A stretch of DNA of 64,000 nucleotides from positions 248,001 through 312,000 of the forward strand of contig WGMO01000001.1 in assembly GCA_016125075.1 (NCBI GenBank), given 5' to 3'. Origin of the DNA: Terrimonas sp. (lineage in GTDB: Bacteria; Bacteroidota; Bacteroidia; Chitinophagales; Chitinophagaceae). The translations under genes were made by a program, and so were the position numbers. The notes beneath the pieces were generated by a model, which saw nothing but the letters and a program-made list of their open reading frames with translations, had not been told where the DNA came from and searched no databases. This document shows positions 13,580 to 42,882 of the stretch, in pieces; position 1 is the first letter of the stretch, and each line of letters opens with the position of its first letter.

Positions 13580-13621
13580 TTCTTTAATTTTTCAATATTT
13601 AAAGTGTATAAAAATAACTAT

Positions 13622-14563
13622 TTATTCTTCACGAACTGCTGCTCTCCTGATATTGAACTGCATTTTGGCCGGCAGCAAATAAGCCCTTTTAAAAATCAAT
13701 TGTCCGCGCTCACCCAATAAAAAATCGGCAAATCCATGTCCCAGCCCATTATGCGTTTCCTTTAATATATAGACCAGTTTCCGGATCATTGGATATCTTC
13801 CTGCATAAATATTTGCTTGCCAGGGCTTTATAAAATCATTTTTGTCATCTTTGCTCTGAAGCATGGCTAATTTCACCTTTGTCAAAAAACTTTCCTGTTT
13901 AGGATCTTCAGGGTTCCCAATCCAGCTTACACCGATGAACCCGATAGCGTTGGGCGTTTTTGAAACATAATCGATCACTTCCTCACTGGTATGGGCCGCC
14001 ACTGCCTTATCTGTCAATGAATCTCCTCTTAACACTGAATCGATGATAAAACTGATGGTACTGGTTGCACGGAGACCATCAAATACCGGGATTAAATTTT
14101 CCTTAAATTTTCCCGTCAGCACAAGTTTCAGGTCATCCATGGTAAACCGGGTATACGTTGATGCCGGGTTAACGATGACGGCCACTGCATCATAAGCCAT
14201 GATCATCTGTGAGGTAGCCACATGCAGGGAGTCCAGGATCAGGTTTTTCTCTTCCGGGGAAATGGTCCGGGCAATGATCACCATCCTGATGCTATCCACC
14301 AGCAGATCTTCCAGGCAGGCCGCTTCCGGTTTATACTGTACATGGATCCTGGCACTGATGTCAGTTTCAAAAACAGCGATATGGGAGTCGATGACCGGTT
14401 TAAACGACTCGTCTGCACTTATATAGATAGAACCGGTTTTCCGGGTATCGGTCGGTTCGTTTTTCCTTGAATTCCGGGAATTACAGGCCGTATTTCCCCA
14501 TAGCAGGAGGATACAGACCAAAAGGGGTAACCCGTAAAATATGTTCCTAGCAAAGCGCCTCAT
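13622..14563 (-). CDS. PstS-like phosphate-type substrate-binding lipoprotein
   Basis: A 313-residue protein with an N-terminal lipoprotein signal (LLVCILLLWGNTACNSR, lipid cysteine at about residue 27) and the PstS-like periplasmic binding fold: SIYISADESFKPVIDSHIAVFE at the start, an ARTISPEEKNLIL segment corresponding to the phosphate-loop region, VIVNPASTYTRFTMDDLKLVLTG, and NAIGFIGVSWIGN. There is no pstCAB transporter nearby; instead it is flanked by TonB, a small membrane protein and a TPR protein. In this setting it may be a regulatory or scaffold protein rather than an ABC transporter component. Its ligand cannot be read from sequence. Confidence 0.8.
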   Translation of the reverse strand: MRRFARNIFYGLPLLVCILLLWGNTACNSRNSRKNEPTDTRKTGSIYISADESFKPVIDSHIAVFETDISARIHVQYKPEAACLEDLLVDSIRMVIIARTISPEEKNLILDSLHVATSQMIMAYDAVAVIVNPASTYTRFTMDDLKLVLTGKFKENLIPVFDGLRATSTISFIIDSVLRGDSLTDKAVAAHTSEEVIDYVSKTPNAIGFIGVSWIGNPEDPKQESFLTKVKLAMLQSKDDKNDFIKPWQANIYAGRYPMIRKLVYILKETHNGLGHGFADFLLGERGQLIFKRAYLLPAKMQFNIRRAAVREE

Positions 14564-23742: not shown

Positions 23743-24690
23743 TCATAAAAAAACAGCGCGGTATACCGTAATGAGGCTCATGACAATGACCAGTATTCCA
23801 ACAATCACAAACATTTTCCTGACCGGCAACCGGGAAGTCAGCATGGCAGAGAAGGGTGCTGTAATGATACCGCCGATCAGCAGACCTGCCACAATATTCC
23901 AATGATGGATGCCCACCTGGAATACAAATGTGATGGCACTGGCCACCGTCAGGATGAATTTTGCGACGGTGGAACTTCCGATCACATAGCGGGGTGTTCG
24001 GCCGTTCTTGATAAAGGTACCCGTCACCAATGGCCCCCATCCCCCGCCACCAAATGAATCGATGAATCCCCCTACGAGACCGAGAACGGGAATATTGGTT
24101 TTTTTCCGTGCACTGTCAGGCTTTTTCTTTTTAAAGGAATTCTGCAGGATTCTTACCCCGAGGTAAAGGGTATAAAGGGCGATCACAGGTTTTGTCATCT
24201 TCGCATAGCGTTCACCGACATAAGTGAGCAATAAAGCCCCGATCACGGCACCGATGATCGCCGGCAGGGCCAATAGTTTTGTCAATTTCTTATTGACATT
24301 TCCGAGTTTATAATGACTGATGCTACCTGCAGCAGTCGTAAACGATTCTGCAGAATGGATACTGGCACTGATAATCGGCGGTGACACATTCAACATCAGC
24401 AAGATGGTGGTACAAATCACCCCGTAACCCATACCCATTGAACCCGCAACGATCTCTGCGAGAAAGCCCACCAGTAACATCCAATAAAAAAGATGATGAT
24501 CCTTATTCAGCGTATCCAGGACCTCATGAAAAGGAACATAGGTGTAGAGAAGGTAAGCAATCGCAATGATAAGGATCCCGATACCCAATGTGATCAGGTA
24601 ACGGTTCGCCCTTTTCTGTCCGTCGGCCACGATATCCGAACTAATGCCTTCTTCTGCCAAAAAAGTATTTACAGGTTGTTGATCATGCAT
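23743..24690 (-). CDS. TauE/SafE-family (sulfite exporter-type) membrane permease
   Basis: About 315 residues with roughly eight hydrophobic segments and the internal repeat of the TauE/SafE/UPF0721 family (MLLVGFLAEIVAGSMGMGYG; NIPVLGLVGGFIDSFGGGGWGPLVTG). It is the last gene of the tetrapyrrole/siroheme operon and its start overlaps the end of the cysG-like gene by 8 bases. Because members export sulfite, sulfoacetate or other organosulfur anions, its place in a sulfite-reduction regulon fits removal or exchange of sulfur anions, but the substrate is inferred. Starts at 24699 or 24738 are also possible. Confidence 0.85.
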   Translation of the reverse strand: MHDQQPVNTFLAEEGISSDIVADGQKRANRYLITLGIGILIIAIAYLLYTYVPFHEVLDTLNKDHHLFYWMLLVGFLAEIVAGSMGMGYGVICTTILLMLNVSPPIISASIHSAESFTTAAGSISHYKLGNVNKKLTKLLALPAIIGAVIGALLLTYVGERYAKMTKPVIALYTLYLGVRILQNSFKKKKPDSARKKTNIPVLGLVGGFIDSFGGGGWGPLVTGTFIKNGRTPRYVIGSSTVAKFILTVASAITFVFQVGIHHWNIVAGLLIGGIITAPFSAMLTSRLPVRKMFVIVGILVIVMSLITVYRAVFL

Positions 24691-25291
24691 GGCTATCATT
24701 TTTTGCAGTTGTGACCGATAATTCCCGGGTGATGGCATTCAGTCTTTTCACTTTCTCCTCAAACCCCCCTTTTATTTCATTTCTTATGATCTGCAGGTTG
24801 TCCAGGAGTTCGTCCATTTCTTCCGGTAAGATATCAATCAACAGCTCTTTTATTCTTTTGGCGATGGTAGGTGACATACCATTGGTACTGATGGCGATCT
24901 TGATATACCCTTTTTGCACAATACTCCCCAGGTAAAGATCGCAGAGATCCGGAGTGTCGGCCACATTGACCAACAAAAACCTTTCCCCGGCATGCTCTTT
25001 TATTTCCCGGTGCAGGCCTGGATTGTCTGTTGCGCAGATCACAAGGTGTTTGTGTTCCAGGTCTGCCAGGACAAATGGCCTTTCTTCAATCTTGCAATGG
25101 GGGTGGCGGGCGACCAGGTCCCGGATCTCTTTCCGCACAAAGGGAGCAACGATGGTGACCGGAGCCTCCGGGGCATTGGACAGCAGGGAATCCAATTTTT
25201 CCAATCCCACATTCCCTCCTCCCACCAGCAGGGTTTGCAATTGTTCCAGTTTAAGAAAAACCGGGTATAACTTATTCTTATTTGAATTCAT
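24683..25291 (-). CDS. precorrin-2 dehydrogenase / sirohydrochlorin ferrochelatase domain (CysG N-terminal type)
   Basis: Converts precorrin-2 to sirohydrochlorin with NAD and probably inserts iron to give siroheme. The 202 residues correspond to the N-terminal half of CysG or to Met8: a Rossmann motif (LLVGGGNVGLEKLDSLL), HLVICATDNPGLHREIKEHA, LVNVADTPDLCDLYLGSIVQKGYIKIAISTNGMSPTIAKRIKE. The methyltransferase half is missing and is supplied by the separate cobA gene at 37853. Start at 25291 lies one base after the upstream stop; an in-frame ATG at 25327 would overlap the upstream gene. Confidence 0.93.
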   Translation of the reverse strand: MNSNKNKLYPVFLKLEQLQTLLVGGGNVGLEKLDSLLSNAPEAPVTIVAPFVRKEIRDLVARHPHCKIEERPFVLADLEHKHLVICATDNPGLHREIKEHAGERFLLVNVADTPDLCDLYLGSIVQKGYIKIAISTNGMSPTIAKRIKELLIDILPEEMDELLDNLQIIRNEIKGGFEEKVKRLNAITRELSVTTAKNDSHA

Positions 25292-25292
25292 A

Positions 25293-25973
25293 TCATTGAA
25301 TAAATGAAAAGTTTTTTTGAAATACAATTGACGCTATATGTTGGATGGATGCCGGCCTGCGGATACCTATATACCCTACCAGTAACTGGCTTGTGGACGA
25401 GAACCGGTAACCAAGCGATCCTGATAGCCTGTTTTGATCAAACATCATGGGCCTGCCTCTTTTATTTTGGAGCATCCATTCATCGATTACCTGTATTTCC
25501 CAGCGCAAACCCCATGGCCATAATAGGGCGGTCCGGTATCGAAGCCGGAATGCCACATCAGCAGGTAATTTATCGACCGTAGAAAAAAATCGTTCCTCCA
25601 GCCTCATACGATGGGTCCATTGAAAGGCGTTCCCAATAAAAATTTTATCCTCCAGTTCCTGCCATATCCTTTTTTCGAAGCCAAATTCTTTACTGGACGG
25701 TGATAAAGAAACACGATGAAAGAATAAAGCCATGCCGCTGGCAGCCTGCAGATGTTGATCCAGCCGATACCGGATACCGGTCCGATAAAAAAACTGCTGT
25801 GCCTGCAGGGAATGGTCCTGGGTCCTGTACCCTTCATCATTGTGCCATTCCCATTTTGACGAGAGCTTTATGTGCTGCTGAAAGCCTAACCATACACCCG
25901 TATGGGGTCTTTGTGCAGGTAATTCAACTGCCACCATAAAAAAAAAGTAAATATAGATGCCCCTTTTCCACAT
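25293..25973 (-). CDS. exported DUF2490-family protein
   Basis: About 226 residues, with a signal peptide (MWKRGIYIYFFFMVAVELPAQ) and a beta-rich body (GVWLGFQQHIKLSSKWEWHNDEGYR, FYRTGIRYRLDQHLQAASGMALFFHR, LRYRTALLWPWGLRWEIQVIDEW, LSGSLGYRFSSTSQLLVGYIGIR) typical of DUF2490, predicted as a small outer-membrane barrel. It is inserted between hemB and the cysG-like gene in the tetrapyrrole operon, with 1-base gaps on either side, so it is certainly co-expressed. The family has no established function. The longer frame up to 26072 overlaps hemB and is not used. Confidence 0.8.
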   Translation of the reverse strand: MWKRGIYIYFFFMVAVELPAQRPHTGVWLGFQQHIKLSSKWEWHNDEGYRTQDHSLQAQQFFYRTGIRYRLDQHLQAASGMALFFHRVSLSPSSKEFGFEKRIWQELEDKIFIGNAFQWTHRMRLEERFFSTVDKLPADVAFRLRYRTALLWPWGLRWEIQVIDEWMLQNKRGRPMMFDQNRLSGSLGYRFSSTSQLLVGYIGIRRPASIQHIASIVFQKNFSFIQ

Positions 25974-25974
25974 A

Positions 25975-26970
25975 TCAATATTCCATTTTGTCGATCCATA
26001 CTTTTGCCTGACCAGCGGCATAGGAAATAATGATATCTGCCCCTGCCCTGGCCAGGGCTGACCATACTTCAAGGTGTGCGGCTTCCCGATTCAGTAAACC
26101 CTGGGCAGCCAGACTTTCCAATGCCGCATATTCACCGCTCACATGGTAAGCAGCAAGCGGTTTAAAGGTTTCCCTTTTCAAACCCGCAATTATATCTGTA
26201 TACAATGTGGCCGGTTTGACCATCAGGATATCTGCCCCCTCTTTTTCATCCCGTATGGCGGAAGCGATAGCATCTTTCCGGTTCAAAGGAGAAATCTGGT
26301 AGCTTTTCCGGTTACCCAACCCCTTCGCATTGGGTGAAGAATGACAGGCATCCCGAAATGGTCCATAAAACTGTGAACTGAATTTGGCCGCATAACTCAT
26401 GATGCTGACATCGTCATAACCCATGGCGTCAAGCAGGGTCCGGATCGCCCCGATCCGACCATCCATCATGTCGCTGGGAGCAATACAATCGGCACCAGCC
26501 TGTGCTAACTGCAAGGCATAGTTGCTAAGTACCTCAACGGTAAGATGATTAACCAATTTAACCTGGTGTTTATCCAATATGCCACAATGGCCATGGGAAG
26601 TGTAACTACAAAGGCAGAGATCCGCGGCCAGCCATACATCATCACCAAAATGCTCCCTGATCTCACTGAAAACGGACCGCGCAAATGAAAAATCAAAATC
26701 CTTTTCCTTTTTTGATGCCGGTACCGGGAAGACCAGGAATTTACTGATCCCGTTGTTCAGTTTATTTTCAATATTCCTCAACACCGACTGCGAGGAATCC
26801 ACCGGCACACCGGGTAACCCCTTCACTGCTCTTGTGGTGGGGATAGCCTCTTCCACAAACAAGGGTTGAATAAAACTTTTATGCGACAACCTCACATCGG
26901 CCGTAAGTTCACGCATATGCGTACCCGCCCGCAGGCGCCGCCTGGTTAGGGGGTAGAATATCTTTTCCAT
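25975..26970 (-). CDS. hemB: delta-aminolevulinic acid dehydratase (porphobilinogen synthase)
   Basis: Condenses two 5-aminolevulinate molecules to porphobilinogen. The 331-residue protein carries the zinc-site cysteines (about 119, 121, 129 in DLCLCSYTSHGHCG) and both active-site lysines: K196 in SYAAKFSSQFYGPFRDA and K252 in ILMVKPATLYTDI. So it is the Zn-type enzyme. Its start overlaps the 3' end of the hemC-hemD gene by 25 bases, evidence of coupled translation. Confidence 0.97.
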   Translation of the reverse strand: MEKIFYPLTRRRLRAGTHMRELTADVRLSHKSFIQPLFVEEAIPTTRAVKGLPGVPVDSSQSVLRNIENKLNNGISKFLVFPVPASKKEKDFDFSFARSVFSEIREHFGDDVWLAADLCLCSYTSHGHCGILDKHQVKLVNHLTVEVLSNYALQLAQAGADCIAPSDMMDGRIGAIRTLLDAMGYDDVSIMSYAAKFSSQFYGPFRDACHSSPNAKGLGNRKSYQISPLNRKDAIASAIRDEKEGADILMVKPATLYTDIIAGLKRETFKPLAAYHVSGEYAALESLAAQGLLNREAAHLEVWSALARAGADIIISYAAGQAKVWIDKMEY

Positions 26971-28478
26971 GCCAAAAATGATTTTATAGTGGGGAAAACA
27001 ACCGGTTCAATACCAGCGGTTTTCAATAATGTGGCCGTTTCTCCAAAAGGACAGGCATGCACGGCTCCCTGTTTAACAAACTGCTTATGTTGTTCATATT
27101 GGGCTGCACTGGTCCAGAATAAGATATCTGCATTCCTGACCTGTTGCTTTATTTCTTCATCCTGCCTGTTGACCAGTGAATGGGTCGCCAGTACATTCCA
27201 ACCTTTTTTCTTCCAGTTAGCTGCGGCATTTTCATTTGTGATCATCAGTACTTCTTCTTTTCTGATGCGCAGCAATGGCATCTCCCATATTGGTGGCAAT
27301 GTTTCAACACCCAGTGCATCAGCAGAACCCTCAACCCAGACCCCTTTCTTAGCCAGTTCAAACCATGTCTTTGTTCCGGCAGCCCAGACCCGTTTTTCCT
27401 GTAACTGTGCCAGTAAACCGGCACTGGTATTTCCCTGTATACTCTTATAATTCGCCAGGTAGACCACCGGTTCCGGGATAAGGGTATTGATGTCCCGGTA
27501 GGCATAATCAAAAAAATCACGCATCCTGTCTGTGCTGCTGAATAAGATCTTTCCAGCGGTCTCCAGTTCGGGTAATTCGGACCAGCGGATAAATTCTTTT
27601 TCATTTTCATCCTTCCCGGCAGCGTAGGTGAGTTTTTGGTCTCCATAGTAAATTGTCGTTACCCCAAACTTCTGTAAACAACCCCTGCCATATTGTTGTG
27701 CCGTTCTTTTTTCATGGATACAATCTGAATGAAGCGATTGATCATTGATAGCATCCAGGATCCGGATGGCTGTTGTATTGCTGAAATGAGCTTCTGCAAC
27801 AATGGCCCCCTGGCAGGGTGCGGGCACACATTCAAAAATGGGCAACAGCATTTTTCTTTTTCCCTTTAATAAATCATGCACAGGTTGATTGGCTGACCCG
27901 CTGATGGATTCAGCTTGTAACAACCGATTCAGTCCTGCTGTGGCCAGGATCGTGGCATCATATTCACCGTTGGAAAGTTTATGCAACCGGGTTTCGACAT
28001 TTCCCCGAATAGGTTTGACGGCCATCTGTATCTCAGCACCCCACTGTGGCAGTGCTTTCTTCAAAAAGCCCAAGACAATTTCCTCTCTCCGTGGCGAGCA
28101 GGTGCCGACAATGAGGGTCTCTCCTTTCTTTATTTTATTTTCAACGTCTTCATTGAAAAGCGCAAGATCCCTGACGTCGTCACGGTCAATCACTGCAAAA
28201 TGGTTCGGGCCAAAAAAATGTTCTCCGCTCATATCCTTCAATGAATGCACCGCAATATCAGCATCGCCCCGGGCAAGCCGGGCAAAGATCTCACCGGTAA
28301 AAAAATCTGTTCCCTCCATCGTTTGCAGCGGAATATCCCTAAGAACGTCACCCCGGCTGGTTACCGGAAGCAGTTCCACCCCGATACCGGGAAAATTCAG
28401 TTCAATTTTCTGTTTCACCAGCTCCATCTGCAAAAGCGAGAGCCTGGATCCCCTGCCGGTCAGCCTGATGGTCTCCAT
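26946..28478 (-). CDS. hemC: hydroxymethylbilane synthase fused to a uroporphyrinogen-III synthase-like domain
   Basis: 510 residues. Residues 1 to about 285 are porphobilinogen deaminase (HemC): GRGSRLSLLQ, ARGDADIAVHSLKDM, GTCSPRREE, IRGNVETRLHKL, PAPCQGAIVAE and the dipyrromethane-cofactor cysteine C267 in QYGRGCLQKFG. The remaining 220 residues have the two-lobed alpha/beta pattern and position expected of HemD (KILFSSTDRMRDFF, KRVWAAGTKTWFELAKKG, ADILFWTSAAQYEQH, PFGETATLLKTAGIEPV), though sequence conservation of HemD is low. The fusion would channel hydroxymethylbilane to uroporphyrinogen III. The start lies 77 bases inside the upstream synthase gene; later starts would remove the RGSRLSLLQ motif. 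Confidence 0.9.
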   Translation of the reverse strand: METIRLTGRGSRLSLLQMELVKQKIELNFPGIGVELLPVTSRGDVLRDIPLQTMEGTDFFTGEIFARLARGDADIAVHSLKDMSGEHFFGPNHFAVIDRDDVRDLALFNEDVENKIKKGETLIVGTCSPRREEIVLGFLKKALPQWGAEIQMAVKPIRGNVETRLHKLSNGEYDATILATAGLNRLLQAESISGSANQPVHDLLKGKRKMLLPIFECVPAPCQGAIVAEAHFSNTTAIRILDAINDQSLHSDCIHEKRTAQQYGRGCLQKFGVTTIYYGDQKLTYAAGKDENEKEFIRWSELPELETAGKILFSSTDRMRDFFDYAYRDINTLIPEPVVYLANYKSIQGNTSAGLLAQLQEKRVWAAGTKTWFELAKKGVWVEGSADALGVETLPPIWEMPLLRIRKEEVLMITNENAAANWKKKGWNVLATHSLVNRQDEEIKQQVRNADILFWTSAAQYEQHKQFVKQGAVHACPFGETATLLKTAGIEPVVFPTIKSFLAWKRYSTP

Positions 28479-29655
28479 GGATGATTTTTTTGAGGCTGTG
28501 CGCCAGGTGATGGATATGTTTTAGCTGGTGCCTGCCCGTTATGATAATACGCAGACATTCTTCTCCTCTTGGGACGGTAGGAAAATTGATAGGTTGTAAA
28601 TAAACACCTTGTTCCAGGAGCAACCTGGACGCTACCGACCTGCAATGTTCAGCACCCGGTACCGGCACGATTGTGATATGAGAAGGGTTCTCCCGGTATT
28701 CGACACCTGCTTGCCTCAATGCAGTCCTCAACTGTTCAACTTTTTGAGGAAGTACCTGCCTGTCACCTGCCTGGATCAGTTCGATACTTTTCCGGGCAGC
28801 GCTGCAAATAGCCGGAGGCAAAGAAGTTGTGAAAATAAACCCGTTCCCGAAGCTTCTTACAAAATCAATGATGGTCTTTGAAGCCGTGATATAGCCCCCA
28901 AACACACCTATAGCTTTTGACAAAGTGCCATTCAAAATATCAATCTTCTCCTGGAGCTGTTCCCTTTCAAAGATACCGGCACCGTTTTTACCATAAAGAC
29001 CCACGGCATGGACTTCATCCACATAGGTCATGGCATTGAATTCCGCAGCCAGCTGAACAATTTCCTGCACAGGGGCGATCGACCCACTCATTGAATACAC
29101 AGATTCAAATACGATAATTTTAGGCTGGTGGTAAGGAACGGATTGCAGGCAGTCGCGTAAATGGGCCATATCATTATGACGGAAAACAAATTTTTTGTTT
29201 TTACAACCCCGCATGCCTTCGATGATGGAGGCATGATTTTCCTGGTCGGAAAAGAAAACCAGGTCATTGATATTCCTGGCCAGTGTTTGCAGCGTAGTAA
29301 CATTGGCCTGGTAGGCGCCATTGAAAAGCAGGGCTGCTTCTTTCCCATGCCAGGCCGAAAGAGTTGCCTCCAGTTCCCGGTGGTAAATGGTCGTACCCGA
29401 AATATTCCGTGTACCACCGCTTCCTGTTCCGCTTTTATAAGTGGTATGGCTCAGTTTCCCGATCACGGCTTCATGGGTACTCATGCAGAGATAATCATTA
29501 CTGCACCAGTTCACAGCAGCACGCTGTTCCCCTTGGACATTTGTATAATAAAAATGTGGAAAATGCTGCACACTTTTGTTCACTTCAAGAAAATAGCGAT
29601 AATGCCCTTCCTGTTTCAATTGCAACAATTTTTCTTCTAATAATTTTTTATACAT
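28402..29655 (-). CDS. 5-aminolevulinate synthase (Shemin pathway)
   Basis: PLP enzyme condensing glycine and succinyl-CoA to 5-aminolevulinate. Within the alpha-oxoamine synthase family the signatures are those of ALAS: NWCSNDYLCM (49-58), GGTRNISGTTIYH (80-92), NHASIIEGMRG, VDEVHAVGLYG (212-222), the PLP lysine K247 in GTLSKAIGVFGGY, and PTVPRGEECLRI (359-370). 417 residues fits. AONS, KBL and SPT carry different residues at the GTRNISGT position. First gene of the tetrapyrrole operon, 11 bases downstream of a palindromic operator. The last 25 residues overlap hemC out of frame. Most Bacteroidota make aminolevulinate from glutamyl-tRNA, so this gene is notable and may be acquired; its base use does not look foreign. 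Confidence 0.92.
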   Translation of the reverse strand: MYKKLLEEKLLQLKQEGHYRYFLEVNKSVQHFPHFYYTNVQGEQRAAVNWCSNDYLCMSTHEAVIGKLSHTTYKSGTGSGGTRNISGTTIYHRELEATLSAWHGKEAALLFNGAYQANVTTLQTLARNINDLVFFSDQENHASIIEGMRGCKNKKFVFRHNDMAHLRDCLQSVPYHQPKIIVFESVYSMSGSIAPVQEIVQLAAEFNAMTYVDEVHAVGLYGKNGAGIFEREQLQEKIDILNGTLSKAIGVFGGYITASKTIIDFVRSFGNGFIFTTSLPPAICSAARKSIELIQAGDRQVLPQKVEQLRTALRQAGVEYRENPSHITIVPVPGAEHCRSVASRLLLEQGVYLQPINFPTVPRGEECLRIIITGRHQLKHIHHLAHSLKKIIHGDHQADRQGIQALAFADGAGETEN

Positions 29656-29823: not shown

Positions 29824-31119
29824 CTACTCCGTAATAATCTCCATTTGTCCTTCTCCGTCCGTGATAGCGGGCATTTGGGGATCTGTATAGTTATAATAAG
29901 AGAGCACAGCCCTGCGCAGCTGTTCTGCCAGCACAAATTTGGGATTGTCCTTACTGAAGATATAATCAGTCCGTTCATTGGGGTTAAAGTCCTTGGCACA
30001 TAAAATATCATACATATAGAAGAGGCCCCACTTGCCGACCCGGATAATGGCTTTTCGCCGGACTAAAATGCTACAGAATACTTCGCTTTTTCTGCGGGTT
30101 TTGATACCGATGCAAACCCCAAAAGTCCTGGTATCATCGTCATTCAGGTATTTCACGAGGTGGTGTTTCAGTTTCAGGGCTTCGAGACTGTTGTCTTCCA
30201 CCTGGAAATTAAGTTCGTTGGCCGCATGCCGTACATTGATCTGGTACTTATCCAGAAGGAAATTCCAGTCCAAACGATTTTTTTCTTCGATGCCTTTGAT
30301 GATAATCGTTTTCCAGGGCGTTGAACAGAGTTGCGTGATCCTGGTCTCCACGCATAAGAGGCATACTTCCTTTAAGAACCGGATGCTGAATAGTTCATCC
30401 CGCCGGTAGATGCCCAGCCAGTATTTGTCATGATACCGGTTCAATCCTTCATAATAAGGAAGATTAAAGGGAGGTAAGCTAAGCGGTTCCCCGGAAGGTT
30501 TTGTGTTAAATGTATGGGTACCGGCCAAAGCATACAGCGCATCACCGTCTGCCGCCGCATTATCGTAAAAGGCATCAGCATCTCCAAGAATCGTCTTTTC
30601 AATATGTTGCGACATGACTGCCAGGTCGTTTGTAAGCACCACATCCTTCCATTCATAAATGATATTGGTTTTGGGAAAACGGATAAACAGGTACCAGTAA
30701 TCCTGCTCAGCCGGTGAGGCCACCCAATTGATATTACCGGTGAGTAAAGGTGTAAAACTTTGGTTGGCATCGCTGATATTGATCTTTAAACGTGGCGAGA
30801 ACCCAAAGGAGGAAAAGATCGACTTGTAGATGTCTTCCGACAACCAGGTATTGATGATGAAGGCTTCCTGCGCCGGATATGAGCTCATGATATTGGGAAA
30901 ATCCTCCCGGTTGATCTCATAACTGACGCCCAGGGTTTCCAGTTCACTGGTAAGATTAGCAAGCTCTTCGATCTCAACATCCAATAATAATTGCTGGCGT
31001 AAACCAAAGCGGACATACAACAATCCCGATTTACCGGCAGCCAGCAGTATATTATACAGATCATTGGGAGGAATAATACCCCCGACAAAATTGATCTTGA
31101 TGGTATTGATATTTTTCAT
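29824..31119 (-). CDS. sulfite/nitrite reductase-like half-domain protein without cluster ligands
   Basis: A 431-residue protein with the ferredoxin-like half-domain pattern of siroheme reductases: near the N-terminus INFVGGIIPPNDLYNILLAAGKSGLLYVRFGLRQQLLL in outline, and a second copy around WYLFIRFP and LLCVETRITQLCSTPWKTIIIKG. The two CxnC pairs that bind the [4Fe-4S]-siroheme centre are absent, so it is probably not a reductase. Related Bacteroidota proteins often end in a rubredoxin domain; none is present here or in the 170 bases downstream. It is divergent from the HEPN sulfite reductase, suggesting an accessory or electron-transfer role. Function inferred only from family and neighbour. 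Confidence 0.7.
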   Translation of the reverse strand: MKNINTIKINFVGGIIPPNDLYNILLAAGKSGLLYVRFGLRQQLLLDVEIEELANLTSELETLGVSYEINREDFPNIMSSYPAQEAFIINTWLSEDIYKSIFSSFGFSPRLKINISDANQSFTPLLTGNINWVASPAEQDYWYLFIRFPKTNIIYEWKDVVLTNDLAVMSQHIEKTILGDADAFYDNAAADGDALYALAGTHTFNTKPSGEPLSLPPFNLPYYEGLNRYHDKYWLGIYRRDELFSIRFLKEVCLLCVETRITQLCSTPWKTIIIKGIEEKNRLDWNFLLDKYQINVRHAANELNFQVEDNSLEALKLKHHLVKYLNDDDTRTFGVCIGIKTRRKSEVFCSILVRRKAIIRVGKWGLFYMYDILCAKDFNPNERTDYIFSKDNPKFVLAEQLRRAVLSYYNYTDPQMPAITDGEGQMEIITE

Positions 31120-31416: not shown

Positions 31417-33546
31417 ATGCAGAGTTTCCGCACAGAGCTGGAAAATCCCCTGGTGGAGCAGGACATCATTGATCTGGAAAAAAAGATCCGTGCATTCCGG
31501 GAAGGAACTATGGATGAAGAGAAATTCCGCAGCCTTCGTCTCGCCCGGGGAGTTTATGGCCAGCGTCAACCCGGTGTACAGATGGTTAGGATCAAACTTC
31601 CTTACGGAAAAATGACCCTCAAACAATGGGAACGTATCAGCCATGTTTCTGATGAATATTCTACCGGGAATTTACACCTGACAACCCGGCAGGATATCCA
31701 GATCCATTTTGTAAGCCTGGACCGCACCCCGGAAATGTGGGCGGAACTGGAACAGGACCAAATAACCATCCGGGAAGCCTGTGGTAACACGGTCAGGAAT
31801 ATCACCGCTTCCGACCTGGCCGGTATTGATCCGGAAGAACCTTTTGATGTGACACCCTATGCACATGCGATGTTTGAATATTTCTTACGCAAACCCTTTT
31901 GCCAGGAAATGGGCCGTAAGTTCAAGATCGCATTCAGCAGCAGTGAAAAAGATTCCGCGCTCACCTTTATGCATGACCTGGGTGCCCTGCCCAGGATAAA
32001 GATCATCGATGGAAAAGAAATCCGTGGCTTTAAGATCCTGGTGGGGGGTGGACTGGGTGCACAACCCCATCTGGCCATCACCACCCATGAATTCCTCGAG
32101 GAAGACAGGCTGATACCCTACCTCGAAGCGGTATTAAGGGTTTTTGACCGGCATGGGGAACGAAACAGCCGGCACAAAGCCCGTATCAAATTCCTGATCC
32201 AGAAAATTGGGATAGACGCTTTCAACGCGCTGGTACAGGAAGAATGGGAGGCCGTTGCAACAAAAACCTTTAGCGTTAATCGGGCTGAGCATATAAACCC
32301 CAATATTCATCATGATAGGATCAGCCAGTCCTTTAATTTACCGGAGACCCCGGACATAGATCCCTACCGGTTTGAGGTTTGGAAAAAATGCAATGTTGTA
32401 GAACAGAAGCAAACCGGTTTTTTTGCTGTGTATGTTCGCGTGCCCAATGGCAATATCAGCAGCCATACCAGCCGGCGCCTGATCGAAAAATTGAAAGGTG
32501 TGATAGCGGATGATGTGCGGGTAACCATTAACCAGGGACTCCAGTTCCGTTTTATCAAAGCAGAACACCTCGAATATATATACCATGTGTTATCGGTAGA
32601 AAATCTGGGAGCAGCCGGTTTTGGGAGTGTGGCCGATATCACATCCTGTCCTGGTACCGACACCTGTAACCTGGGGATCAGTAACAGTACCGGCACAGCA
32701 TTGGTACTGTCGGAAATGATCGAAGAAGAATATCCCGAACTGTTATACAATAAGGACCTGAGCATCAAGATCAGTGGGTGTATGAACAGTTGCGGACAGC
32801 ATGGTATGGCATCGATCGGGTTTCATGGTTCATCCTTAAAAGCCAGAGGCCAGGTTGTACCCGCCCTCCAGGTATTGGTGGGGGGCGGCATACTGGGGGG
32901 AGGTGAAGGGCGGATTGCCGCAAAGGTTATCAAAGTGCCGAGTAAGAGAGGTCCGGATGTGGTCAGGACCCTCCTGGACGATTATCAACTGAATGCACAT
33001 GAAGGTGAACGTTATGACAACTATGTACAACGGCAAACCGATAAATATTTTTATGAACTCCTCAAACCCCACGCCAATCTGGATACACTGCAGGATGATG
33101 ATTTTATTGACTGGGGGCAGGAACAGAAATTCGCTACAGCGATCGGTGTGGGCGAATGTGCAGGGGTGATGATCGACCTGGTCGCTACCCTGATTTTAGA
33201 AGCCCGGGAGAAAATGGAGAACAGTGAAGCCTGCCTGGCAGCCGGTCAGTGGTCCGACGCCCTGTACCACGCCTATAGCGCACAGGTTCATGCTGCCAAA
33301 GCCCTGCTCTTACAACAGGGAGTACAGTGCAATACACAGCATGGCATATTAAAAGACTTCGATCTGCATTTCACTGAAAAAGGTCTATACACCGACCGGC
33401 CCAATTTCAAGGACGCCGTATTAGCGATCAACCGGGAATCGCCCGGAGAAGCATTCGGGTACCGTTACCATGCAGAAGCCCGAGCGTTCCTGGAATTTTC
33501 AGTCGTATGGAGAAAACAGGCGGTAACCGGTATGCAAAATGAATGA
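31417..33546 (+). CDS. assimilatory sulfite (nitrite-type) reductase with C-terminal HEPN domain
   Basis: Siroheme enzyme, most likely reducing sulfite to sulfide in assimilation given its neighbours. 709 residues: two half-domain/catalytic-domain repeats up to about 560, with the complete cluster motif C-x5-C (C411, C417 in SCPGTDTCNLG) and C-x3-C (C455, C459 in GCMNSCGQHG). Residues from about 589 form a helical HEPN domain (LEAREKMENSEACLAAGQWSDALYHAYSAQVH in outline, ending FLEFSVVWRK). The HEPN part lacks an obvious RxxxxH nuclease motif, so it is probably a binding module. Similar fusions are annotated across Bacteroidota. Nitrite reduction cannot be excluded by sequence alone. Confidence 0.9.
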   Translation: MQSFRTELENPLVEQDIIDLEKKIRAFREGTMDEEKFRSLRLARGVYGQRQPGVQMVRIKLPYGKMTLKQWERISHVSDEYSTGNLHLTTRQDIQIHFVSLDRTPEMWAELEQDQITIREACGNTVRNITASDLAGIDPEEPFDVTPYAHAMFEYFLRKPFCQEMGRKFKIAFSSSEKDSALTFMHDLGALPRIKIIDGKEIRGFKILVGGGLGAQPHLAITTHEFLEEDRLIPYLEAVLRVFDRHGERNSRHKARIKFLIQKIGIDAFNALVQEEWEAVATKTFSVNRAEHINPNIHHDRISQSFNLPETPDIDPYRFEVWKKCNVVEQKQTGFFAVYVRVPNGNISSHTSRRLIEKLKGVIADDVRVTINQGLQFRFIKAEHLEYIYHVLSVENLGAAGFGSVADITSCPGTDTCNLGISNSTGTALVLSEMIEEEYPELLYNKDLSIKISGCMNSCGQHGMASIGFHGSSLKARGQVVPALQVLVGGGILGGGEGRIAAKVIKVPSKRGPDVVRTLLDDYQLNAHEGERYDNYVQRQTDKYFYELLKPHANLDTLQDDDFIDWGQEQKFATAIGVGECAGVMIDLVATLILEAREKMENSEACLAAGQWSDALYHAYSAQVHAAKALLLQQGVQCNTQHGILKDFDLHFTEKGLYTDRPNFKDAVLAINRESPGEAFGYRYHAEARAFLEFSVVWRKQAVTGMQNE

Positions 33547-37852: not shown

Positions 37853-38656
37853 CTAGGCTTCCAATTCCCTGAAAACACTCCCGGAATTTTCTGTAGCATT
37901 AAACCATCCGAATTTGTCATACAGGGAAACAACATGCCCGATGATGACCAGTGAGGGAGAACGGAAGGAACTGTTGCCAAAATCTGCTTTGCATTGCTGC
38001 AGGGAAGAGATATGCACCGCCTGGAATGGAGTGGTGGCCTGTTCAATCACGGCCAGGGGTGTTGAAGGATGACGGGTATATCGCAGTAAAATTTCTGCGA
38101 GGTCAGTAATATTTTTTGCCGCCATATAAAAAACCAGCGTATCATGTGTCTGGGCCAGCTGTTTCCATTTTTCCGGGCTATACCCGCTGTTCGGATTAAA
38201 GGTCAGCAACTGTACACCCTGTGAAAAATTCCGGGCCGTAAGCGGAATACCGGTATAAGCAGAGGCACCACTGGCTGCTGTAATACCCGGTATGATCTCG
38301 TAAGGTATTCCCTGCTCCACCAGGGAGGACAACTCGTCGAATATATTGCTGAAAAATGCCGTATCTCCCCCTTTTAACCGCAATACCGCTTTGCCGGACA
38401 ATGCCTGTTCCACGATATAACCGGTTACCTGTTCCTGGGTCATGGAGGCTTCATGGTATCCCTGTTTTCCGGCAAAAATGACAGTCGCATCCTTCGCTGC
38501 ATATTTTTCTATGATGAGGGGATTTACCAGACGATCCGTGATGATGACATCGGCTGTTGCCAAACGATTCATCAATTTCAAAGTAATCAGTTCTTCATCA
38601 CCGGGTCCTGCACCGGCCAGGGTCACTTTTCCCGTCTTATCTTTTTCTATCATCAT
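37853..38656 (-). CDS. cobA: uroporphyrinogen-III C-methyltransferase
   Basis: Methylates uroporphyrinogen III twice with SAM to make precorrin-2, the first committed step toward siroheme. The 267-residue protein has the SUMT signatures VTLAGAGPGDEELITLKLMN, DVIITDRLVNPLIIE, VLRLKGGDTAFFSNIFDE and GITAASGASAYTGIPLTAR. It completes the siroheme path with the separate CysG-type dehydrogenase at 24683. It lies 33 bases after cysN in the cysDN operon, so siroheme supply is tied to sulfate activation. Confidence 0.95.
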   Translation of the reverse strand: MMIEKDKTGKVTLAGAGPGDEELITLKLMNRLATADVIITDRLVNPLIIEKYAAKDATVIFAGKQGYHEASMTQEQVTGYIVEQALSGKAVLRLKGGDTAFFSNIFDELSSLVEQGIPYEIIPGITAASGASAYTGIPLTARNFSQGVQLLTFNPNSGYSPEKWKQLAQTHDTLVFYMAAKNITDLAEILLRYTRHPSTPLAVIEQATTPFQAVHISSLQQCKADFGNSSFRSPSLVIIGHVVSLYDKFGWFNATENSGSVFRELEA

Positions 38657-38689
38657 CGCTCCTTTACCATTAAGACAAATAAATACGGG

Positions 38690-39934
38690 TTATTGTTGCA
38701 ATAAAACTGCCGCCACGGTACTGTTGCTGGTTTCATCGATCAGGACGGCACTGCCATTCACACTTAATTTTTCATAGCTGTCAAAGACCAGTGGTGAGGC
38801 GGTTTTAAGCGTTGCATTTACCACTTCGTTGAGTTTGACTGGTGCATCTACGGCTTGTTGCTGAAGGCTGTTCACATCCAGTTTATATGCTACGTCACGC
38901 ACCACCACCCTCAGCAGCCTGCTATTGTGCTGGAGTAAATACTTATTCCCCGGCTGCAGGGGTTTTTCATCCATCCAGCAAAGGAGTACATCAGTTTCAT
39001 TACTGACTGCTGGCAGGTTATCGGATCGCACAATACTATCACCCCGGCTGATATCGATATCATCCGCCAGGTGGATCACAACACTCTGCGGGGCAAATAC
39101 TTCTTCCACCTCCCTGCCGCCCACTTCCAGTTTGCTGATGACGGATTCAATGCCCTGTGGCAATACGGTTACGCTATCACCTGATTTATAAACACCGCTG
39201 ATCACGGTGCCGGCATATCCCCGGTAATCATGTAATGTATCAGTTTGAGGCCGGATCACTAACTGCACCTGGAAACGGGGATCGGTCAGATTGATATCAT
39301 CTTTCGTTTCCACTTCTTCGAGGTACTGCAATAAAGGTTTCCCTTCGTACCAATCCATCACTTTCGAAGGATCTACGATATTATCGCCCCGTAAAGCACT
39401 GATAGGAATATAGCTGACATTTCTTAACCCCAGTTGTACAGCCACCTTGCTATAATCGATCACGATATTATTGAACACATCCTGTGAAAAATCCACCAGG
39501 TCCATTTTATTGACTGCTACCACCACATGCGGGATTCTTAACAGGGAAGCGATAATGGAATGTCTCCGGGTTTGTTCCACCACACCCTGGCGGGCATCGA
39601 TCAGTACAATCATCAGGCTGGCATTGGAAGCGCCGGTGATCATATTCCGGGTATATTGTACATGACCCGGTGCATCGGCAATGATGAACTTTCTTTTAGG
39701 TGTAGTGAAGTAACGGTAAGCCACATCAATGGTGATGCCCTGCTCCCTTTCGGCCCGCAGACCATCAGTGAGTAATGCGAGGTCAACCTGCCCTGCCTCC
39801 ATGTTGCGGGTAGACCTTTCAAGCGCCTCCATCTGGTCGACAAGGATATTTTTACTGTCGAACAACAGCCTCCCGATCAATGTGCTCTTTCCATCATCAA
39901 CACTTCCAGCAGTGATAAAACGTAACAGATCCAT
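38690..39934 (-). CDS. cysN: sulfate adenylyltransferase subunit 1 (GTPase)
   Basis: GTPase subunit that drives ATP sulfurylase to make adenylylsulfate (APS). The 414 residues resemble elongation factor Tu: P-loop GSVDDGKSTLIGRL (about 9-22), DAPGHVQYTRNMITGAS, the NKMDL specificity motif, then two beta-barrel domains. No APS kinase (CysC) domain is attached, consistent with reduction of APS directly by CysH. It follows cysD by about 88 bases. Confidence 0.97.
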   Translation of the reverse strand: MDLLRFITAGSVDDGKSTLIGRLLFDSKNILVDQMEALERSTRNMEAGQVDLALLTDGLRAEREQGITIDVAYRYFTTPKRKFIIADAPGHVQYTRNMITGASNASLMIVLIDARQGVVEQTRRHSIIASLLRIPHVVVAVNKMDLVDFSQDVFNNIVIDYSKVAVQLGLRNVSYIPISALRGDNIVDPSKVMDWYEGKPLLQYLEEVETKDDINLTDPRFQVQLVIRPQTDTLHDYRGYAGTVISGVYKSGDSVTVLPQGIESVISKLEVGGREVEEVFAPQSVVIHLADDIDISRGDSIVRSDNLPAVSNETDVLLCWMDEKPLQPGNKYLLQHNSRLLRVVVRDVAYKLDVNSLQQQAVDAPVKLNEVVNATLKTASPLVFDSYEKLSVNGSAVLIDETSNSTVAAVLLQQ

Positions 39935-40022
39935 GTATTCGGTATTTTGTTTTGCTAATGAATGAGTATGTAAAAAAGGTGAAGCGCATTCCGGCTGATA
40001 ACCGGCGCCCGGGTATTTTGTC

Positions 40023-40931
40023 TTAAAAATAACCGTTCTTTTTCCTGTCCTCCATCGCCGCCTCGGTCACTTTATCATCAATCCTTGTTTCACCCCTTTC
40101 GCTGATCCTGCTGGCAATGATTTCCTCTATCACACGGTCAAGGGTATCCGCAGTAGATTCAACTGCCGCGGTGCAGGTCATATCGCCCACGGTACGGTAA
40201 CGCACCCGCCGCGTGGCGATCACATCCTGTTCATCGATCTGGATAAAGGGTGATACTGCGATCAACTGGCCCTCATGTTCCAGCACCTCTCTTTCGTGTG
40301 AAAAATAAATCGACGGCAGGGCGATCTTTTCTTTCCGGATATAATTCCAGATATCCAGTTCCGTCCAGTTGCTGATCGGGAATATGCGGACATTTTCGCC
40401 CTTGTGGATACGACCATTATAAATATTCCAGAGTTCCGGGCGTTGCAGTTTGGGGTTCCACTGGCCAAACTCATCCCGCACGGAGAAGATCCTTTCCTTG
40501 GCCCTTGCTTTTTCTTCATCTCTTCTTGCCCCACCGATACAGGCATCAAATTTGAATTCTTCGATGGTATCGAGGAGTGTATAGGTCTGCAGCCAGTTAC
40601 GGCTGGCAAATTTCCCTTTAGGTTCGGTCAGGCTTTTTTCCCGGATCGTATCCTCCACTTTTCTCACAATGAGCGATGCATTCACTTCAGCAGCCAGGGC
40701 ATCCCGAAAATCCAGCGCTTCGCTGAAATTATGCCCCGTATCGATATGGACCAATGGAAAGGGGATCTTTCCGGGGGCAAAAGCTTTCCGGGCCAAATGT
40801 ACCATCGTAATGGAATCTTTGCCCCCGCTGAAAAGCAATGCTGGTCTTTCAAACTGTGCTGCGATTTCCCGAAAAATATGAATACTTTCTGCTTCCAGTT
40901 CTTCGAGGTAATCCAAATGATATTTTGCCAT
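40023..40931 (-). CDS. cysD: sulfate adenylyltransferase subunit 2
   Basis: Catalytic ATP sulfurylase subunit, transferring AMP from ATP to sulfate. The 302-residue protein shows the PP-loop SGGKDSITMVHLARKAF, the substrate segment IDTGHNFSEALDFRD, CIGGARRDEEKARAKERIFS and the C-terminal RYRTVGDMTCTAAVESTA block followed by RISERGETRIDD. First gene of the cysD-cysN-cobA operon; operator site 3 is 13 bases upstream of its start. Confidence 0.97.
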   Translation of the reverse strand: MAKYHLDYLEELEAESIHIFREIAAQFERPALLFSGGKDSITMVHLARKAFAPGKIPFPLVHIDTGHNFSEALDFRDALAAEVNASLIVRKVEDTIREKSLTEPKGKFASRNWLQTYTLLDTIEEFKFDACIGGARRDEEKARAKERIFSVRDEFGQWNPKLQRPELWNIYNGRIHKGENVRIFPISNWTELDIWNYIRKEKIALPSIYFSHEREVLEHEGQLIAVSPFIQIDEQDVIATRRVRYRTVGDMTCTAAVESTADTLDRVIEEIIASRISERGETRIDDKVTEAAMEDRKKNGYF

Positions 40932-40944
40932 GCCCTGATTTTAT

Positions 40945-40967
40945 TAGTCTACTTAATTAGTAGGGTA
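40945..40967 (-). promoter_or_regulatory. Rrf2-type operator, site 3 (cysD operon)
   Basis: Plus strand reads TAGTCTAC, 7 bases (TTAATTA), GTAGGGTA, so relative to cysD it is inverted compared with sites 1, 2 and 4. A weak -7 box TACTTTTA on the minus strand (40975-40968) directly abuts it upstream; no TTG at the expected spacing. Confidence 0.78.
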
Positions 40968-41033
40968 TAAAAGTACAACATTAGCGGGAATTATGCCCTG
41001 ATTTTCGTTAAGAATCTTTAAAAAGGGAGGTAA

Positions 41034-41747
41034 CTACTGTTTGTTTGGATCCTGGAGGTGTTCATGCAAGCCGCATTCTTTTTGCGAGCTTTCCCACCAC
41101 CAACGACCGGCCCTGGGATCTTCGCCGGGTTCAATGGCCCTGGTACAAGGGGCACACCCAATACTGATATACCCTTTATCATGGAGGGTATTGCAGGGGA
41201 TATTATGCTGTTGGATATAACTGATCATCTCTTCATAGCCCCAATGGATAAGCGGATTAAATTTATACAATTGTCTTTCCTCATCCCATTCCAGCATCTT
41301 CATATCACTTCTGTTGGCAGATTGTGCTGCCCTTAAACCGGTGATCCAGACCTTTGCTCCTTCCAGGGCGCGGTTCAGGGGTTTCACTTTTCGGATATGA
41401 CAGCATTGTTTCCTGTTCCCGACCGATTCATAAAAACCATTGACGCCCTTTGCCAGCACATATGCTTCCACATCGGCAGGGTCGGGGAAAAGGACCCGGA
41501 TATTGATCTTATACCGGGCATTGGTTTTTTCCAGCAAGTCATACGCCTCATAAAACAAACGGCCTGTATCGAGGGTAAAAATATCGACCGGGATTTGATG
41601 TTCCCCAATAACTGCCGTGATCACCTGGTCTTCCTGGCCCAGTGAACTGGAGAATACCACCTTACCGGGAAACAGGCTGGTTACCAGCTTGAGTGCCTCC
41701 GGTAAGGGGTAGTCTTCAATTTTTTCCAATAACTGATCGTCGTTCAT
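41034..41747 (-). CDS. cysH: APS reductase (phosphoadenylyl-sulfate reductase family, iron-sulfur type)
   Basis: Reduces adenylylsulfate to sulfite. 237 residues with the PP-loop-like FSSSLGQEDQV segment and a C-terminal catalytic cysteine C225 in ECGLH. It also carries the cysteine pairs C115/C116 (QCCHIRK) and C198/C201 (GCAPC) that bind a [4Fe-4S] cluster and mark the APS-using subclass, rather than the cluster-free PAPS reductase of E. coli. No cysC is present nearby, in agreement. It follows the peroxiredoxin gene by 19 bases, so both are read from the promoter at 42423. Confidence 0.95.
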   Translation of the reverse strand: MNDDQLLEKIEDYPLPEALKLVTSLFPGKVVFSSSLGQEDQVITAVIGEHQIPVDIFTLDTGRLFYEAYDLLEKTNARYKINIRVLFPDPADVEAYVLAKGVNGFYESVGNRKQCCHIRKVKPLNRALEGAKVWITGLRAAQSANRSDMKMLEWDEERQLYKFNPLIHWGYEEMISYIQQHNIPCNTLHDKGYISIGCAPCTRAIEPGEDPRAGRWWWESSQKECGLHEHLQDPNKQ

Positions 41748-41766
41748 GATCCGGAATTGCTACAGC

Positions 41767-42402
41767 CTATTTGTCGGGCTGTGGTGTATAACGCAGATAA
41801 GGTTTTATGACTTTGACGCCCTTTGGAAACTTTTTAATCGCATCCTCGGTCGATACTGCCGGCACCACGATCACATCTTCTCCTTCTTTCCAGTCGGCAG
41901 GTGTAGCCACACTATAATTCGCTGTCAATTGCAGGGAATCCACCACGCGCAGCACTTCGTTAAAATTTCTTCCGGTGGAAGCGGGATAGGTGATCATCAG
42001 TTTAACGGTCTTGTCTGGCCCGATCACAAACAGGGAGCGCACTGTTGCCGTGGCAGAGGCATTGGGATGGATCATATCATATAAGGTGGCCACATTCCTG
42101 TCTTCATCCGCAATGATCGGAAAACCCACGGAACAATGCTGTGTTTCATCAATATCCTTTCGCCATGCAAAATGCTTATCAATGGGATCGATGCTCACCG
42201 CCAGCACTTTCACATTCCTTTTAGCAAACTCTTCCTGCAAAAGAGCGGTCTTGCCCAGTTCGGTCGTACAAACCGGTGTGAAATCGGCAGGGTGGGAAAA
42301 AAGAATCCCCCATCCATTACCCAGGTATTCATGAAAATCAATCTCACCTTCTGTTGTCACTGCTTTGAAATTGGGTGCAGTGTCACCAAGACGTAATGAC
42401 AT
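41767..42402 (-). CDS. 1-Cys (Prx6-type) peroxiredoxin
   Basis: Thiol peroxidase removing peroxides. 211 residues; the peroxidatic cysteine is in SHPADFTPVCTTELG, and the long C-terminal dimerisation extension (KEGEDVIVVPAVSTEDAIKKFPKG, ending YLRYTPQPDK) is that of the Prx6 subfamily; a conserved resolving cysteine is not evident. Its grouping with cysH under an operator of the sulfur regulator suggests protection of thiol and sulfide chemistry or of the Fe-S reductases, an inference from context. Confidence 0.95.
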   Translation of the reverse strand: MSLRLGDTAPNFKAVTTEGEIDFHEYLGNGWGILFSHPADFTPVCTTELGKTALLQEEFAKRNVKVLAVSIDPIDKHFAWRKDIDETQHCSVGFPIIADEDRNVATLYDMIHPNASATATVRSLFVIGPDKTVKLMITYPASTGRNFNEVLRVVDSLQLTANYSVATPADWKEGEDVIVVPAVSTEDAIKKFPKGVKVIKPYLRYTPQPDK

Positions 42403-42422
42403 AGTGTTAAATTTTAAGTGAA

Positions 42423-42453
42423 CAAAAATAAGTTAATTATACTACCCTACCAA
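42423..42453 (-). promoter_or_regulatory. promoter of the peroxiredoxin-cysH operon
   Basis: Minus strand: TTG (42453-42451), 20 bases, TATTTTTG (42430-42423), exact consensus. The -33 element lies within operator site 4. Confidence 0.75.
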
Positions 42454-42465
42454 AATAGTAGACTT
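42443..42465 (-). promoter_or_regulatory. Rrf2-type operator, site 4 (peroxiredoxin-cysH)
   Basis: Minus strand reads AAGTCTAC, 7 bases (TATTTTG), GTAGGGTA; one outer base differs from the other three sites. It covers the -33 element of the peroxiredoxin promoter and lies 9 bases after the end of the Rrf2 regulator gene. Confidence 0.8.
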
Positions 42466-42474
42466 TATCCTTTC

Positions 42475-42882
42475 TTACACCACCAGGTCCTTCAGGGTCC
42501 TTCCTTCCAGGATTTCGAGGGTGGCATCCCTGACATCGATCATGAGGTCATGAAGACCGCAGCTTTTTTCATCACAATTCTTGCAGCGCTCATAAAAATA
42601 CAGGCTCACACAGGGTAACATGGCGATCGGTCCGTTGATCAAACGGACAATGGTCGCTACCTTGATCTTTGCCGGATCCTGTTTCAGGTAATAGCCCCCG
42701 CCCTTGCCCTTCTTACTGTCCAGGATACCTGCCTTTTTCAGTTCCAGGAGGATATTTTCAAGAAATTTCAGCGGTATTTTCTTTTTCCTGGCAATCTCTG
42801 AAATCAGGACAGGCCCTTTTTTGTAATGCTCTGTAAGATAGGTCAGGGCTTTGAACGCATATTGTGATTTTGCTGACAGCAT
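42475..42882 (-). CDS. Rrf2-family transcriptional regulator (CymR-like)
   Basis: 135-residue winged-helix repressor. The N-terminal helix-turn-helix follows the Rrf2 pattern (SAKSQYAFKALTYLTEHY, ISEIARKKKIPLKFLENILLELKKAGILDSKKGKGGGYYL). The C-terminal half has four cysteines (C91, C100, C103, C108 in PCVSLYFYERCKNCDEKSCGLH), more than CymR, so it may bind an Fe-S cluster or sense thiols. It lies in a line with OsmC (4-base gap) and CDF genes and beside operator site 4, and is the obvious candidate to bind all four operators; autoregulation through the CDF/OsmC promoter is not evident. Confidence 0.88.
   Translation of the reverse strand: MLSAKSQYAFKALTYLTEHYKKGPVLISEIARKKKIPLKFLENILLELKKAGILDSKKGKGGGYYLKQDPAKIKVATIVRLINGPIAMLPCVSLYFYERCKNCDEKSCGLHDLMIDVRDATLEILEGRTLKDLVV

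Follow-up and report, generated by a model that had tools for sequence, protein, structure and literature searches.

In a 64,000-nucleotide stretch of a Terrimonas sp. genome (assembly GCA_016125075.1, contig WGMO01000001.1, positions 248,001 to 312,000; hereafter the window), a 417-residue open reading frame (ORF) encodes a 5-aminolevulinate synthase (ALAS) that stands first in an operon of siroheme-synthesis genes (Table 1). With a probability of about 0.83, we read it as a genuine ALAS that is the only source of 5-aminolevulinate (ALA) detected in its genome and that feeds siroheme, the heme branch and the glutamate-fed (C5) front end both being undetected. Glycine-using ALAS is known from animals and alphaproteobacteria, and Bacteroidota mostly make tetrapyrroles from glutamate. 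The enzyme family itself is a known one; the differences lie in the group of bacteria that carries it, in a role that seems confined to siroheme and in the lack of a detected heme branch around it.

In an NCBIfam search, the window protein scored 488.9 bits with TIGR01821 (5-aminolevulinate synthase, cut-off 338.55), the sole equivalog model that it passed. The sister models for bioF (329 bits, cut-off 426) and KBL (302 and 255 bits, cut-offs 460 and 493) stayed under their cut-offs, as did those for SPT (243 bits against 640, and lower). Among solved structures, the five top relatives are all ALAS, with that of R. capsulatus (2bwn, E-value 2.7e-111) in first place, and the best non-ALAS chain follows at an E-value of 7e-63. 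Active-site residues R21, N54, T83, H142, D214, H217, K248, T365 and R374 (R. capsulatus numbering throughout) are conserved; we take K248 to be the pyridoxal phosphate lysine and R21 to be a substrate residue. A sequence-only reading of this DNA had quoted five motifs as ALAS signatures. All five are present, but the SNDYL and DEVH/GTLSK regions are generally common to the alpha-oxoamine synthases. A discriminating position is Thr83 (in TRNISGT): Thr occurs in all six ALAS rows compared (one being the window protein), Val in the KBL of the same genome and in two other KBL, and Ser in one BioF. This residue is described as placing the succinyl-CoA carboxyl (part of PMC4525017). Across the family, TIGR01821 scores are bimodal, with complete ALAS at 478-520 bits, two partial ones at 373 and 401, and the next best protein at 312; the best sub-ALAS score in a phylum-wide draw was 322 bits.

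A different alpha-oxoamine synthase (AONS, KBL or SPT), or one of the cyclizing ALAS known from secondary metabolism, is a scarcely credible identity for this protein. The fold family is shared, as the 302-329 bits to bioF and KBL models attest, and when one long-branched BioF and one long SPT/AONS-like row are included in the tree (from which one outgroup row with stops was removed), the branch with ALAS on one side has support of 54/98. Against this, TIGR01821 alone exceeds its cut-off, eight rows including three KBL are set apart by a 100/95 branch, and ALAS separates from the eight other rows at SH-aLRT 100 once the two long rows are dropped. The phylogeny suggested by the sequence-only reading as a check therefore places the protein clearly apart from KBL and, with one long row each, from AONS and SPT only at 54/98. 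Moreover, hemC and hemB lie directly downstream, and the paralogues of the same genome, one KBL (694 bits, over cut-off) and one SPT/AONS-like protein below every listed cut-off, are separate genes. Cyclizing ALAS of actinomycetes carry Ser at positions 83 and 365, according to part of PMC4525017, whereas the window protein retains Thr at both. As judged from its sequence, the window gene is a true C4 (Shemin) ALAS, whose product would be expected to have this activity; the sequence-only assignment to ALAS rather than AONS, KBL or SPT is borne out by the family model, by 2bwn as top structure and by Thr83.

The operon runs on one strand in the order ALAS, a 510-residue HemC fusion, HemB, a DUF2490 protein, a SirC-like protein and TauE. 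Neighbouring ORFs overlap by 77 (ALAS/hemC), 25 (hemC/hemB) and 56 (sirC/tauE) nucleotides, lengths that depend on mechanical, unverified ORF starts. The minus strand also carries, at 37853-42882, genes for CobA, CysN, CysD, CysH, a peroxiredoxin and an Rrf2 regulator, and a sulfite/nitrite reductase is encoded on the opposite strand just past the upstream neighbour of ALAS. The window thus holds CobA- and SirC/CysG-N-type genes near a siroheme enzyme, and the description of a siroheme operon with ALAS first stands, with two amendments: DUF2490 lies between hemB and sirC, and the 'hemD' half of the fusion is weakly supported. No RNA element was found within 22000-45000 at Rfam gathering scores. 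Scans for promoters (18 found, 13.2 expected, near chance) and terminators (17 found, 8.9 expected) were not used.

We then consider the rest of the genome, a 3.92-Mb, 99.97% complete draft. Ten of 14 control genomes gave a match to the model of glutamyl-tRNA reductase (GlutR), but this genome gave none. No protein exceeded the HemL cut-off: the best of four matches reached 192 bits of the required 527, and the four are two argD-type proteins (below argD cut-offs), an ornithine aminotransferase and BioA. On the same model, three relatives have HemL proteins of 595-606 bits. Since neither GlutR nor HemL was detected, ALAS is left as the sole supplier of ALA found in this genome. The sequence-only reading had offered two possibilities, a pair of routes to ALA in one genome or an ALAS where the glutamate route is gone; the hemA/hemL search disfavours the former, which we reject, and agrees with the latter. 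URO-D and ferrochelatase were likewise undetected, each being found in 8 of 14 control genomes. Synthesis of heme from siroheme, for which AhbC serves as a marker, was also rejected: AhbC, the only protein of the Ahb route sought, was over cut-off in none of the 27 ALAS genomes of the family (best 66.9 of 650 bits). Among the branches searched, which did not include cobalamin, that of siroheme alone is present. Because the heme branch is missing too, ALAS appears to serve siroheme, an outcome that the earlier reading had not foreseen: its proposal of an ALAS set aside for siroheme gains support as to the product and loses it as to a second route.

In the pathway that we propose, ALAS would make ALA from glycine and succinyl-CoA, HemB would convert ALA to porphobilinogen and HemC would convert this to hydroxymethylbilane, from which the fused domain, probably HemD, would form uroporphyrinogen III. 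CobA, whose gene lies with the nearby cys genes, would then yield precorrin-2, and the SirC-type protein siroheme, to be used by the adjacent sulfite reductase. Heme would presumably be taken up from outside for the heme-copper oxidases, for which this genome has two genes and which are present in 27/27 ALAS genomes. With the C5 front end and the heme branch both undetected, the organism is expected to depend on outside heme and to make its own siroheme.

Two other fates of the ALA have to be weighed. ALAS might also feed heme, having simply taken the place of the C5 front end, with a heme branch missed through a draft gap or an unknown decarboxylase or chelatase. The oxidases do require heme, and one relative (G048) combines the ALAS operon with hemE, hemF, a UPF0093 gene and hemH, GlutR not being found. 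We nevertheless hold this to be unlikely: neither URO-D nor ferrochelatase was detected in a genome that is 99.97% complete, URO-D is undetected in 23/27 ALAS genomes, and AhbC exceeds its cut-off in none of the 27. Alternatively, the main product could be cobalamin, as the CobA and SirC-type steps are common to the cobalamin and siroheme branches. Around ALAS, however, the genes identified encode sulfite reductase and Cys proteins or are of the nitrate-assimilation type, and a siroheme reductase is found in 26/27 ALAS genomes, which makes cobalamin very improbable as the main product.

The association recurs across the family. Among 394 Chitinophagaceae genomes, ALAS is over cut-off in 27 and GlutR in 268; both were found in 2 (G023 and G136), ALAS only in 25, GlutR only in 266 and neither in 101, a table made by eye from the lists of GlutR genomes and the 27 ALAS genomes. 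The two genes avoid each other (Fisher test, P-value 1.4e-11, relatedness not corrected). The 27 include two partial genes, one at a contig end (G346) and one in two pieces (G200), both excluded from the ALAS alignment (A1) and trees; an ALAS-looking contig-edge fragment of 298 bits (G296) is left outside. The earlier statement that Bacteroidota normally use GlutR and HemL holds in this family for GlutR, the half of it that the survey covered. URO-D and siroheme reductase were counted in 75 of the 394 genomes, a hand-chosen, non-random set of all 27 ALAS genomes, 31 of the 266 with GlutR only and 17 of the 101 with neither. URO-D is present in 4/27, 31/31 and 1/17 of these, respectively (the last a partial match of 124 bits), and a siroheme reductase domain in 26/27, 25/31 and 1/17. 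The sole ALAS genome without the reductase is 64% complete, and the match in G048 is weak (32.8 bits). In five genera (g25, g53, g83, g86 and g87) ALAS-only and GlutR-only species occur together; thus, the swap between ALAS and GlutR is not one old split. Beyond the family, a phylum-wide draw of 395 genomes gave ALAS over cut-off in 3, all Chitinophagaceae, and in 0/381 outside. The best 80 matches in a contig scan of named genomes contain two Saprospiraceae and one metagenome-assembled Candidatus Kapaibacterium (48-50% identity), followed by alphaproteobacteria and SAR86 (44-49%).

As a separate observation, 16 of the 17 genomes examined with neither GlutR nor ALAS over cut-off lack siroheme reductase and 16 lack URO-D, so that many of the 101 may make no tetrapyrrole at all.

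Gene order was compared at one locus in each of the 26 other ALAS genomes. In 23 of them hemC comes next after ALAS, hemB follows in 22, and sirC and tauE lie downstream in 22; three of the four loci without sirC (L041, L051 and L062) end at a contig end. True exceptions are L046, where the stretch has ALAS but lacks all of hemC, hemB and sirC, and L057, where ALAS, sirC and tauE occur without hemC and hemB; at L040, an unrelated long ORF separates hemB from sirC. At L058, L039 and L049, cysN, cobA and two further ORFs (matching CysJ- and CysI-type domains in L058) run on the same strand into the ALAS-hemC-hemB-sirC/tauE genes. Sulfite reductase, CobA or CysN is found at 20 of the 26 loci and a relative of the 431-residue protein that lies upstream of the window ALAS at the remaining six. 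At L046 and L050, this relative adjoins a molybdopterin oxidoreductase of the nitrate-reductase type; a MobA-like gene and an MFS transporter were confirmed at L050, and L044 looks similar by eye. ALAS therefore sits with siroheme consumers, and the ALAS-hemC(D)-hemB-sirC-tauE operon beside sulfate- or nitrate-assimilation genes is largely conserved, which agrees with the claim that this ALAS belongs to a siroheme operon. Circumstantially, the operon may be under sulfur control: an Rrf2 gene heads the nearby cys genes of the window, and at L058 an Rrf2-type regulator, cys genes, cobA, cysJ-/cysI-type genes and the ALAS operon form one same-strand run.

A tree of 64 rows places all 31 Bacteroidota ALAS in a single clade (support 100/98), in which the window protein pairs with that of a congener (G021; 100/99). 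They were presumably gained from outside the phylum. Recent transfer from one of the alphaproteobacterial groups sampled was rejected, as the clade lies inside none of them in a tree that is thinly sampled, largely unresolved at depth and unsettled in its bootstrap (0.977). ALAS-like proteins of 44-45% identity in two SAR86 records (L139 and L143) fall among ALAS in the tree, and the SAR86-cluster genomes that carry them are another case of ALAS outside alphaproteobacteria.

HemB of the operon is 50-70% identical among operon copies from Chitinophagaceae to Saprospiraceae and Kapaibacterium and 36-42% identical to HemB of heme operons, even within G136, which has both sets; HemC of the two operon types shares 27-31% identity. 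With this HemB lineage standing apart, ALAS, hemC(D) and hemB appear to travel as a module with a history of its own, distinct from the family heme operon. In a GlutR genome, that operon (L064) holds GlutR, hemC, hemD, hemE, hemF, hemB and hemL, its hemC and hemB being recognized by similarity to those of the window. The heme cluster of G048 (L071, 954-4684) consists of hemH, hemE, hemF and a UPF0093 (HemJ-type) gene, and its contig gave no match to hemB or hemC. Its ALAS operon lies elsewhere in the genome and GlutR was not found; therefore, ALAS may feed heme in G048, a possible intermediate.

Several points count against an ALAS devoted to siroheme. URO-D occurs in four ALAS genomes, G023 and G136, which have GlutR, and G048 (83% complete) and G324 (7% contaminated), which do not, so that the link between ALAS and absence of heme synthesis is not absolute. 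A 32-contig draft could lack a gene that the organism has. Siroheme ferrochelatase activity of SirC is assumed. The C-terminal domain of the HemC fusion is probably the uroporphyrinogen III synthase HemD but is not firmly identified: in a fold search, the AF2 model of the fusion (pLDDT 90) matches porphobilinogen deaminases over residues 1-303, HemC filling the lists, and a profile search of PDB for HemD gave no match. HEM4 (PF02602, gathering score 27.5) reaches 11.5 bits in the window and 24.1 bits in L058, both below cut-off, its E-value is below 0.01 in 2 of 21 members of the fusion alignment (A2), and a profile comparison with heme-operon HemD gave an hhalign probability of 0.18%. In favour of such an enzyme, the tail cysteine offers a soft argument. 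Part of PMC6154995 reports that C-terminal Cys398 of C. crescentus ALAS binds inhibitory heme; a tail Cys is present in 1/25 Bacteroidota ALAS and in 21/29 alphaproteobacterial rows (picked from 67). Its loss would fit an enzyme freed from heme feedback and no longer serving heme, but 8/29 alphaproteobacterial rows lack it too.

Table 1. ALAS operon and neighbouring sulfur-assimilation and siroheme genes of the window
Feature	Position	Strand	Basis
5-aminolevulinate synthase (ALAS), operon gene 1	28402..29655	-	TIGR01821, PDB 2bwn, trees
HemC (residues 1-303) with C-terminal domain, probably HemD	26946..28478	-	TIGR00212, 165.0 bits (cut-off 164)
Porphobilinogen synthase HemB	25975..26970	-	NF006762, 351.4 bits, over cut-off
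DUF2490 protein within operon	25293..26072	-	PF10677, 107 bits
Precorrin-2 dehydrogenase / siroheme synthase N-domain (SirC-like)	24683..25327	-	TIGR01470, 105.1 bits, over cut-off
TauE/SafE-type transporter	23743..24738	-	PF01925, 132.7 bits
431-residue protein upstream of ALAS, NiR/SiR-like fold	29824..31119	-	No Pfam; Foldseek NirA 1zj8, E-value 1e-11, model of pLDDT 63
Siroheme-type sulfite/nitrite reductase, C-terminal HEPN	31417..33546	+	PF01077, 153.6 bits; PF03460; PF05168, 31.7 bits
Uroporphyrinogen-III C-methyltransferase CobA	37853..38656	-	TIGR01469, 233.1 bits, over cut-off
Sulfate adenylyltransferase large subunit CysN	38690..39934	-	TIGR02034, 529 bits, over cut-off
Sulfate adenylyltransferase small subunit CysD	40023..40931	-	PF01507, 148 bits; name from domain, CysN neighbour and our reading
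CysH (PAPS/APS reductase)	41034..41747	-	PF01507, 150 bits; name from domain and our reading
Rrf2-family regulator heading cys genes	42475..42882	-	PF02082, 120.9 bits

The low-confidence model of the 431-residue protein resembles NirA/sulfite reductase hemoprotein. Six relatives have 495-498 residues and four tail cysteines that align in all six, and one of them (498 residues) was shown to end in a rubredoxin; this tail is absent from the window protein and from the L056 copy. ALAS loci carry either a close relative (72-76% identity) of the HEPN reductase or a distant (23-26%) reductase upstream, the latter in L058 being a CysI-type protein that adjoins a CysJ-type flavoprotein. In L058, too, the SirC and TauE domains occupy a single 503-residue ORF (12679-14190, plus strand), corresponding to two overlapping ORFs in the window.

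At about even odds, we suggest a wider reading: that a siroheme module fed by glycine and complete in itself (ALAS-hemC(D)-hemB-sirC with cobA) was gained once by a Bacteroidota ancestor, was inherited apart from the heme operon and permits complete loss of heme synthesis, leaving heme auxotrophs that are siroheme prototrophs. If so, the module would make the assimilation of sulfur and nitrate independent of the heme pathway that starts from glutamate, and its carriers could therefore drop heme synthesis, front end included; G023 and G136, with both modules, and G048, with a reduced heme cluster, would then be intermediates. The tie of ALAS to siroheme rather than heme gives a testable genomic rule as to which Chitinophagaceae require heme from their surroundings and for what reason hemB and hemC persist in some of these. 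Scores of pathway completeness might miscall genomes with ALAS and no heme synthesis; one study defines an auxotroph by a pathway less than 50% complete (PMC11139205). Among the open-licence papers that our literature searches listed, no title or opening of an abstract pointed to ALAS in Bacteroidota, and we do not claim its absence from print.

ALAS on mobile DNA exists, the phage-borne vAlaS being described in part of a 2024 report (Nat Commun, PMC11480375); a viral origin of the window ALAS was rejected, as a viral-contig scan, which reaches close relatives only, gave no match to it. The cyclizing ALAS of actinomycete secondary metabolism is likewise an ALAS outside alphaproteobacteria, but it differs in Ser83 and Ser365 (part of PMC4525017), where the window protein has Thr at both positions and hem and cys genes as neighbours. 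The C5-fed heme operons of the family (L064, L069 and L070) share the chemistry from ALA to uroporphyrinogen III and differ in their C5 front end, their end product, heme, and their separate HemB and HemC lineages. Finally, the window enzyme resembles alphaproteobacterial and mitochondrial ALAS (HemA of Rhodobacter, EC 2.3.1.37) in sequence family and active-site residues, whereas it stands in a siroheme operon of a genome with no detected heme branch and belongs to a clade of Bacteroidota ALAS of its own, 24/25 of which lack the tail Cys.

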